Below, in pieces: positions 61,482-64,000 of a DNA stretch of 64,000 nucleotides; the first letter of the stretch is position 1, and each line of letters begins with the position of its first letter. The position numbers and the translations under genes are program-made. A model generated the notes under the pieces. The model had not been told where the DNA came from. It was given only the letters and a program-made list of their open reading frames with translations, and did not search any database. This DNA comes from an uncultured Gammaproteobacteria bacterium (GTDB taxonomy: Bacteria > Pseudomonadota > Gammaproteobacteria > DRJJ01). Location of the stretch: contig CAMYJU010000008.1 in assembly GCA_947258795.1 (NCBI GenBank), positions 1 to 64,000 of the forward strand, read 5' to 3'.

Positions 61482-61616
61482 ATAATTCTGTGAAACTTCA
61501 CACTTAAGACCCTGTCATATTGCATACAGTTTGACCTTCTGTTAGTTTTTTCAAGCTTACGGATAGTACAAACCAGAACTAAACCAAGAACTTTTTATAC
61601 GTATGGAGAGATAACC

Positions 61617-62057
61617 ATGTCTACAACCCTTAAGCAGAAACCCCTGGCTGCAACAGTAGGTGCAGCGTTTGTATCAAGCATGGCCGCAGGTGTACCTGCC
61701 GTGGCCAATGCCGATCAATCCCCTTTCTCCGCTACCAGCATGTCAGAAGGTTACATGGTCGTTGCCGGCATGGAAGGTAAATGTGGCGAAGGCAAGTGCG
61801 GCGGCAAGAAGGCCGAGAAAAAGTCTGAAGGCAAATGCGGCGAAGGCAAGTGCGGCGCCAAGAAGAAAGCCGAAAAGAAAATGGAAGGTAAGTGTGGCGA
61901 AGGTAAATGTGGCGGCGAAAAGGCCGAAGGTAAAGCCATGAAGAAAATGGAAGGTAAGTGTGGCGAAGGCAAATGCGGTGGCGAAAAGGCTGAGGGTAAA
62001 GCCAAAAAGAAAATGGAAGGTAAGTGTGGTGAAGGCAAATGCGGTGGCAAGAAATAA
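61617..62057 (+). CDS. hvfA: HvfA-type RiPP precursor with ten EGKCG motifs
   Basis: A 146-aa exported precursor. The N-terminal signal peptide ends about residue 32 (VANA-DQ), followed by a short linker and a repeat region rich in K, G, E and C. Ten cysteines occur, all in EGKCG pentapeptides arranged as five EGKCGEGKCG pairs: Cys56/61, 74/79, 93/98, 115/120 and 137/142. Related precursors in Haemophilus are modified by HvfB/HvfC at these cysteines to oxazolone and thioamide groups that bind copper. Here the two gaps after blocks 3 and 4 contain EGKA, a near-motif without cysteine. GGAGA precedes the ATG. hvfB follows 12 bases later. Confidence 0.93.
   Translation: MSTTLKQKPLAATVGAAFVSSMAAGVPAVANADQSPFSATSMSEGYMVVAGMEGKCGEGKCGGKKAEKKSEGKCGEGKCGAKKKAEKKMEGKCGEGKCGGEKAEGKAMKKMEGKCGEGKCGGEKAEGKAKKKMEGKCGEGKCGGKK
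61770..62054 (+). repeat. In-gene tandem repeat encoding EGKCG blocks
   Basis: Five copies of a unit beginning with ATG/TCT-GAAGG-AAATG-type DNA (codons for M/S-EGKCGEGKCG), starting at 61770, 61824, 61881, 61947 and 62013. Spacings are 54, 57, 66 and 66 bases; the last two units are nearly identical (66-base period). Copy number may vary by slippage. Confidence 0.85.
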
Positions 62058-62069
62058 TCACTGTATAGC

Positions 62070-62933
62070 ATGAACATGAAAGCATATTCTGTTCATGGTG
62101 CCGGCCTCGGCCTGAGGCGGACCCTGTTGGGTCCGTTGGCCGAGCAGCCACCCACCCAGGTCGGCTTCATGGAAGTCGCACCGGAAAACTGGATGCGCGT
62201 TGGTGGCAGTCTGGGAAAACAATTCCGTGAATTTACCGAACGTTACCCGTTTGTCTGCCATGGCCTGTCCCTGTCTATCGGCAGCCCGGCACCACTGGAC
62301 GTGGATTTTCTGAAGGAATTAAAGGTCTTTCTGAAAACCCATGACATTAAACTTTATTCTGAACACCTCAGTTACTGCAGCGATGAAGGTCATTTATATG
62401 ACCTGATGCCGATCCCGTTTACTGAAGATGCAGTCAGTTATGTCGCTGCACGCATCAGACAGGTACAGGATATCCTCGAACAACGTATCACGATGGAAAA
62501 CGTTTCCTACTATGCCGCCCCCGGCCAGGAGATGTCGGAAACAGATTTTATCAACGCGGTGCTAAAAGAAGCGGACTGCGATCTGCTACTGGATGTTAAC
62601 AATATCTACGTTAACAGCATTAACCATCGCTATGATGCGGAAGAATTCCTGCGCGCCATGCCGGCCGAACGGGTCAGCTATTTCCACATCGCCGGTCATT
62701 ATGATGAAGCGGAAGACCTGCGTGTAGACACCCATGGATCCGATGTAATCGACCCGGTCTGGAACCTGCTGGACGTCGCCTACGATCACTGTGGTGTCGT
62801 GCCGACTCTGCTGGAACGTGATTTCAATATCCCGCCTCTGCAGGAACTGCTTGCTGAAGTGGATACCATCATTCGCTATCAGCAAAAATGGGCCAACACT
62901 AATGTCAGCGATCACCAGCTTGCCCAGGGATAA
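62070..62933 (+). CDS. hvfB: HvfB family MNIO-type (DUF692) RiPP maturase
   Basis: A 287-aa TIM-barrel protein of the DUF692/MNIO (multinuclear non-heme iron oxidase) family. It should convert EGKCG cysteines of the precursor to oxazolone-thioamide groups using iron and oxygen. Likely metal ligands: His64 in [11 protein letters not shown], Glu98/His99 in YSEHLSY, Glu143/Asn144 in MENVSYY, Asp175 and Asn177 in [10 protein letters not shown], His206 and His210 in FHIAGH, Asp220 and His222 in DTHG, and Glu249 in [11 protein letters not shown] start six bases later is possible; there is no strong ribosome site, so translation may be coupled to hvfA. The end overlaps hvfC by 32 bases. Confidence 0.93.
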
Positions 62934-63687
62934 GCAACCCGAATTCATACGCAAGCAGTATGAGTTCGCAGCACATATCCGTGACCCGGAAAATACACCA
63001 CGCCCCGATGATGTCGAGGCCCGGCGCATGGATATATACAACGAACTGTTTTACAACAATGTAGCGTCTTTTATTTCCGATGGCTTTCCTGTCATACGCA
63101 GCCTGTATTCAGACCAAGACTGGCATGCCCTGGTGAGAGATTTTTTTGTAAGCCACCATTGCAAGACACCACTGTTTCTGGAAATCGCGCAGGAATTTCG
63201 TCAATACCTCGAAAGCGAACGCAACAACCCGCAGGATCCACCATTTTTAAAAGAACTGGCGCATTATGAATGGGTCGAAACCGCGGTCGGCATTGCCGAA
63301 GAGGAAATTGACGATAGTCATACCGACATCAACGGGGATTTGCTCGATGGCATCCCGGTACTGTCACCCCTGGCAATGCCACTGCAATACCAGTTTGACG
63401 TTCAGCATATCAAGCCTGAATATCAACCTGACACAACACCCGAACAACCCACCTGCATCATAGTGTATCGCAACCGCGCAGACGAAGTCGGCTTCATGGA
63501 GATCAACCCGGTAAGCCTGCGCCTGGTACAACTGATTGCGACACAGCCGGATCAGACAGGCCGGCAACATCTACAATTAATTGCCAAAGAACTGAACCAC
63601 CCCAAACCGGAAGTTGTCATAACTGGTGGAACAGAGACCCTGGAAACCTTACGCAGTAAAGAGATTATCCTGGGTTCCAGAAGATAA
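62902..63687 (+). CDS. hvfC: HvfC family (DUF2063) RiPP maturation partner
   Basis: A 261-aa protein, start ATG 62902 ([14 protein letters not shown]), inside the end of hvfB; longer frames beginning further upstream lie entirely within hvfB and are not coding. The DUF2063 N-terminal domain is seen as [61 protein letters not shown] (about residues 18-78). The C-terminal half holds [18 protein letters not shown]. In the family the partner binds precursor leader or substrate for the MNIO enzyme. Overlap predicts translational coupling. The four genes are one transcript. Confidence 0.92.
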
Positions 63688-63742: not shown

Positions 63743-64000
63743 ATGTTGACAAAGCTGCAACAGCTGCTGGATAGCACCCGTGCAATCGATTTCCTGGCGC
63801 CGCTGGCATTGCGTCTGTACCTGGCACCGATCTTCTGGATGGCCGGCATGAGCAAGGCCACCAGTTTTTCCGACACCGCGGCCTGGTTCGGCAACCCGGA
63901 ATGGGGACTGGGCCTGCCGTTCCCGACCCTGATGACTGCACTGGCAACAGGCACCGAACTGGGTGGCGCGATACTGCTGCTGTTCGGGCTTGGCGTACGC
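63743..64000 (+). CDS. hvfX: HvfX-like DoxX family membrane protein, cut by window end
   Basis: The first 86 codons of a DoxX-family membrane protein; the rest lies beyond the window. GGAGAG lies ahead of the ATG. Membrane helices at about residues 19-38 (PLALRLYLAPIFWMAGMSK) and 62-83 (LMTALATGTELGGAILLLFGLG). DoxX-family members are regular partners of DUF692/DUF2063 RiPP operons (bufferin and Hvf types). A sulfur or redox role has been proposed for DoxX; here it is inferred to assist copper-peptide maturation or export. Confidence 0.85.
   Translation, partial: MLTKLQQLLDSTRAIDFLAPLALRLYLAPIFWMAGMSKATSFSDTAAWFGNPEWGLGLPFPTLMTALATGTELGGAILLLFGLGVR

Follow-up and report, generated by a model that had tools for sequence, protein, structure and literature searches.

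The region analysed here (“the window”, a stretch of 64,000 nt from a contig of an uncultured Gammaproteobacteria bacterium) contains a small precursor gene with many EGKCG motifs. The locus raises the question of how such an array has grown, and whether the EGKA strings in its spacers, which resemble the motif and lack the cysteine, are traces of motifs gained or lost. Translation yields ten EGKCG motifs, which form five EGKCGEGKCG pairs with pair-start spacings of 54, 57, 66, and 66 nt, i.e. units of 18, 19, 22, and 22 residues from pair to pair. Tandem Repeats Finder detected a period of 66 at 61866-62048 (2.8 copies, 90% matches, score 303) and a period of 54 at 61770-61928 (score 191), and a repeat finder returned a single family of five copies with spacings identical to those of the translated pairs. 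The original prediction of ten motifs in five pairs, a period of about 66 nt in the last units, and an EGKA string in each of spacers 3 and 4 was exact by translation and by Tandem Repeats Finder; the span 61770-62054 extends from the Met ahead of pair 1 to the final sense codon. The array is no chance pattern, its match to the domain model NF050137 reaching 87.9 bits in four stretches against a cut-off of 19.5. The features are listed in Table 1.

Table 1. Positions of the hvf genes, the repeat units, and the upstream element in the window
Feature	Position	Strand	Basis or remark
Inverted repeat GTGAAACTTCAC upstream of hvfA, in or preceding the block conserved with the genus mate	61490..61501	+	single exact genome copy
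hvfA-type RiPP precursor, 146 aa	61617..62057	+	NF050137 87.9 bits (cut-off 19.5); NF050188 85.9 bits (below cut-off 95)
Signal-peptide-like N-terminal leader of the precursor	to about residue 33	+	by eye
EGKCGEGKCG pair 1	61773..61802	+	translation
EGKCGEGKCG pair 2	61827..61856	+	translation
EGKCGEGKCG pair 3	61884..61913	+	translation
EGKA in spacer 3 (GEKAEGKAMKKM), out of motif register	61926..61937	+	translation, repeat register
EGKCGEGKCG pair 4	61950..61979	+	translation
EGKA in spacer 4 (GEKAEGKAKKKM), 66 nt downstream of the spacer-3 EGKA	61992..62003	+	translation, repeat register
EGKCGEGKCG pair 5	62016..62045	+	translation; 1/30 nt differs from pair 4
hvfB, MNIO (DUF692) maturase	62070..62933	+	NF003818 457.7 bits (cut-off 360); PF05114
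hvfC, DUF2063/RRE partner; ATG start at 62902 chosen by reading, longest ORF from 62791	62902..63687	+	NF050145 326 bits (cut-off 142); PF09836
hvfX, DoxX-type; continues beyond the window to contig position 64336	63743..64000	+	NF050144 91.5 bits (cut-off 80), in-window part

The precursor gene is the first of an hvfABCX operon, and its HvfB-, HvfC-, and HvfX-type neighbours each exceed the cut-off of their own model (NF003818, NF050145, and NF050144). On the basis of this operon and the domain-model score, the precursor was filed at the domain level in the HvfA/Buf_EGKCG (“captophorin”) RiPP family, to which its sequence assigns it. It was left out of the HvfA equivalog, because its 85.9 bits with NF050188, the model for oxazolin proper, are under the curated cut-off of 95. 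A search of the 3.36-Mb draft genome (42 contigs) with NF050137 had the window array as its sole match. Ahead of D33, the precursor has a hydrophobic stretch and the residues ANA (by eye), and a helix spans residues 10-24 in a low-confidence model.

With HvfA/oxazolin of nontypeable Haemophilus influenzae, the precursor shares EGKCGEGKCG pairs and an operon of hvfA, hvfB, hvfC, and a DoxX-like hvfX, and its leader may correspond to the signal peptide of that protein (PMC13419390). The H. influenzae peptide has three AEGKCGEGKCG motifs (six Cys), whereas the window precursor has ten Cys in five pairs, its Lys-rich spacers are longer, and its score is under the NCBIfam equivalog cut-off. Fontiphorin FonA of Fontimonas thermophila also has EGKCG repeats matured by an MNIO and a DUF2063 protein; its repeats are all similarly modified and bind Cu, and it has seven sites, hence not five pairs (PMC13097082). 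MmrA/bulbicupramide of Microbulbifer resembles the window precursor in its two-Cys cassettes with Lys runs; the strain studied has three cassettes as opposed to five pairs, Microbulbifer precursors vary from five to eight Cys with a conserved leader, and no EGKA-bearing spacer appears in the extract describing MmrA (PMC12538549). The Buf_EGKCG/oxazolin family likewise has two EGKCG per repeat and a variable repeat number, its members having 31-506 residues and as many as 58 Cys (PMC12452194). The published account of that family gives 17-residue repeats and a beta-helix model, whereas the window units are longer and their model is disordered: an AlphaFold2 prediction (14 sequences) gave a mean pLDDT of 41.2, a pTM of 0.11, and zero strands. 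A beta-helix fold for the window array was rejected on account of this strand-free model, which is uninformative on the modified, copper-bound form. In 76 relatives (see below), the distance between adjacent pairs is 17 residues in 19 of 111 cases, the commonest value being 16 (40 of 111).

To assess how the array has grown, we compared the five pairs with one another. Pairs 4 and 5 differ at one of 30 nt, while a mean of 5.5 differences is expected from the codons of neighbouring genes (P for one or fewer, 0.004); when the codons of the array itself were shuffled, P was 0.026. Ten comparisons were made, of which that of pairs 4 and 5 showed the fewest differences, and the P values are uncorrected. 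There are two differences in 30 nt between pairs 1 and 2 (P for two or fewer, 0.025) and three between pairs 3 and 4. Averaged over all five pairs, the difference of 3.8 is not clearly lower than that of the shuffled arrays (4.2, P 0.20). The sequence supports tandem duplication towards the 3′ end of the array, because a 66-nt period with 90% matches coincides with pairs 4 and 5 that differ by a single nucleotide, and duplication of the last unit is the best supported step. An order of unit duplications was also sought and could not be derived, since pairs 1 and 2 are near as well and the overall mean is close to the shuffles. That the array length is an artefact of assembly, i.e. a collapsed or expanded tandem repeat, is very improbable: the genome is a draft in 42 contigs and one other genome from the class search has a frame-changing array, but the window array stays in frame up to the stop codon, comprises only about 285 nt, and has units that can be distinguished by codons and spacers.

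The repeat number was then compared across 110 related loci, i.e. 80 found with HvfB as the query (the best 80 of 568 confirmed loci), one from the same genus, and 29 from a class search. The class search compared the precursor with 369 genomes, of which 123 matched, the window's own included, and returned 30 loci, the thirtieth being the window itself. The genus, family, and order searches each gave the same two genomes, that of the window and one genus mate. Eighteen of the 110 loci had no open frame with at least two GKCG (ten with 3 kb upstream of hvfB, eight with less), 11 were cut or contained unknown letters, and five were duplicates, leaving 76 precursors. The ten loci that have no such frame although 3 kb upstream of hvfB is available (L010, L011, L030, L032, L036, L040, L049, L066, L071, and L077) point to other precursor types or a different gene order. 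Kept among the 76 was L106 (G126:C19), in which the EGKCG array shifts frame midway and later repeats match in another frame, as a true frameshift or an assembly error; its first frame alone was counted.

In the 76 precursors, kept from 110 loci that include the best 80 of 568 HvfB loci, the number of EGKCG motifs ranges from 1 to 13 with a median of 7, and 13 have ten or more. Ten motifs are thus a high number without being exceptional, and the variation anticipated for related genomes was found. HvfB could be obtained for 70 of the 76, and for these and the window there are 17 locus pairs with HvfB at least 85% identical; these pairs share members and are non-independent. The GKCG count differs in 12 of the 17 and is unchanged in five, which counts against general instability. 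Two Neisseria gonorrhoeae records have four EGKCG each, too few for a conclusion. The genus mate, whose HvfB is 85% identical to that of the window (the pair lies just under the 85% line), has nine motifs in another layout and no EGKA in its precursor, so neither a fixed number nor a conserved EGKA was observed.

Both EGKA strings of the window are at offset 9 from the preceding motif, i.e. no multiple of 5. They read as EG plus an old spacer dipeptide KA, because KA-x-K-K-[M/S] stands immediately ahead of the next pair in all four window spacers and AAAGCC, which codes for KA, recurs in the 66-nt register at 61866, 61932, and 61998; the second copy would be explained by one 66-nt duplication. 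The proposal that EGKA is a trace of repeat birth or loss was therefore not borne out at this locus. Two points count against the spacer origin. The KA ending is not shared by all spacers of the genus mate, of which three of six end in KADMKKM or KGDMKKM, one residue longer and hence shifted by one residue. Furthermore, a partial copy of a motif start is possible as the source of EGKA, because the EGK codons of the first EGKA (GAA GGT AAA) also encode EGK in two true motifs of the array and because EGKA arises in only 2.5% of spacer-3 shuffles.

Motif-like strings without cysteine are present in register in the relatives. EGK followed by a residue other than C occurs 16 times at offset 5 in the 76 precursors, compared with 2.0 in shuffled spacers (0 of 2000 shuffles reach 16), an excess that is overstated since the shuffles ignore the positional pattern (G/E)-x-K-A. 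Elsewhere it occurs 8 times, compared with 10.5 in the shuffles, 82.5% of which reach 8. A fairer sign of in-register strings is the contrast within 251 spacers of four or more residues, in which an E directly after the motif has G as its next residue in 32 of 62 cases and a G at that place has G next in 1 of 145. Mid-spacer GKA was found 12 times after a residue other than E (in five precursors) and twice after E, and the sister spacers of one relative (L043) contain EGKA, EEKA, and ESKA. Judged from these sequences, in-register strings are over-represented in the family, but the EGKA of the window belongs to the out-of-register strings, whose frequency does not exceed chance. Some of the in-register cases may themselves be spacers of the pattern (G/E)-x-K-A with G as x. 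An in-register degenerate motif was rejected as a description of the window's EGKA, given its offset of 9, the spacer origin of KA, and the frequency of out-of-register near-motifs, which does not exceed that in shuffles. The EGKA strings could alternatively be EGKCG remnants, either from a lost block that left EGK fused to the spacer KA or from a motif that lost its cysteine and was then duplicated. The motif-identical EGK codons of the first EGKA and the in-register EG(K/M)x strings of relatives (the 16 EGK at offset 5 and the contrast of 32/62 with 1/145) are consistent with such an origin, but the offset of 9, the fixed place of KA in four of four spacers, and the genus mate without EGKA make it unlikely. 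A limited literature search, in extracts of the articles, yielded no account of EGKA spacers.

The chemistry of relatives bears on what the additional motifs might do. EGKCG cysteines are converted to 5-thiooxazoles by an MNIO and its DUF2063 partner (PMC13097082, PMC13419390), and the same conversion is tentatively assigned in PMC12538549. FonBC processed a two-motif peptide and left a one-motif peptide unprocessed (PMC13097082), and motifs without cysteine stay unmodified (PMC12538549; PMC13097082). By inference, the ten cysteines of the window precursor are modified, and its EGKA strings, which have no cysteine, should stay unmodified. By analogy with FonA, the ten cysteines may provide fewer than ten copper sites, because native MS of this seven-site peptide, fused to MBP, showed at most four bound Cu (PMC13097082). 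One copper site per cysteine is not borne out by these published data, Cu being fewer than modified Cys in FonA, and the number of Cu bound by the window product would be lower than its number of cysteines, perhaps a single ion for each pair. It is rather unlikely that the motif number has been tuned by selection for copper capacity, with more motifs binding more copper and being favoured under copper stress. The range of 1 to 13 motifs and the copper binding of relatives (PMC13097082) would fit such selection, but neutral gain and loss of tandem units accounts for the variation equally well, and the copper load of FonA speaks against it.

The layout of the motifs was compared between loci with similar maturases. 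The nine motifs of the genus mate form two pairs and five singles. Small plasmids of Moraxella sp. DOX410 and Acinetobacter ursingii (L131 and L132) carry MNIO clusters with AKCG arrays, and 271 of the 276 residues of their maturases are identical. In Moraxella, the precursor contains three AKCGEAKCG pairs; in A. ursingii, it contains one pair and five singles. In both the genus-mate and the plasmid cases, the layout changed while the maturase changed little. The plasmid MNIOs are 56-57% identical to that of the window, and a tblastn search of plasmids with the window precursor, with the low-complexity filter on, gave zero matches. On the Moraxella plasmid, an IS4-family transposase gene is located between the MNIO gene and a putative DNA-binding (DUF2063-type) gene. 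We suggest tentatively, and with some doubt, that captophorin-type arrays repeatedly switch between a paired and a mostly single layout with little change of the maturase, that HvfBC tolerates wholesale replacement of the core, and that layout, rather than number, may set copper binding. No account of a pair-to-single switch beside near-identical maturases was found in a limited search of the literature, seen in extracts.

The leader and a block upstream of hvfA are well conserved between the window and the genus mate. The inverted repeat GTGAAACTTCAC is a possible operator or promoter element; as a shared operator it was rejected, having one exact copy in the genome. The looser pattern TGAANNTTCA was found at any place in ten of 81 loci in a one-strand scan, one instance being the genus mate's own copy, and a scan for sigma-70-type promoters found none.

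Overall, the window gene is likely to encode a captophorin precursor whose cysteines become 5-thiooxazoles and whose exported product sequesters copper, with a core grown by tandem duplication and EGKA as a spacer feature duplicated once. HvfC would present the precursor to the iron enzyme HvfB, which would convert the EGKCG cysteines to 5-thiooxazoles, as published for relatives; the product would be exported via the putative signal peptide and would then sequester copper. The core would have grown by tandem duplication, its last units being 66-nt copies, and the 66-nt copy would have carried the EGKA spacer along, so that the two EGKA would represent one spacer feature and not two lost cysteine sites.

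Several further loci were observed. The window genome has two MNIO loci besides hvfB. One is a second MNIO system (L096 3279-5831, G000:C20) with a bufferin-type maturase over the cut-off, a small Cys-containing precursor candidate that matches BufA2 weakly (17.4 bits against a cut-off of 60), and a divergent sigma-factor-like gene with a possible anti-sigma neighbour (both by eye). At the third (G000:C6:148474-149117), two reading frames share the match and the N-terminal part is missing from the longer open frame, so the gene may be broken; inspection by eye of the listed ORFs of at least 70 aa revealed no precursor there. The precursors of L006 and L020 contain an EF-hand pair within the EGKCG array, with motif pairs on either side (Pfam EF-hand_5 over cut-off); published EF-hands are C-terminal to a short EGKCG domain without 17-residue repeats (PMC12452194). 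In the methane-oxidizing endosymbiont of Gigantopelta aegis (L056), the precursor carries several GEMSCGAMM-type repeats along with ACGEGKCG motifs, so that another kind of Cys repeat adjoins an HvfB-type maturase.

The copper-binding family and its variable repeat number are already known, and the evolutionary detail of the window array is of moderate interest. The array is a well-bounded example of a copper-binding RiPP gaining sites, with units duplicated in frame together with their spacers. The layout can turn over between relatives with maturases that are 85% or 98% identical, and this turnover yields natural substrate pairs, with paired and with single motifs, for asking whether thiooxazole pairs are the copper-binding unit.
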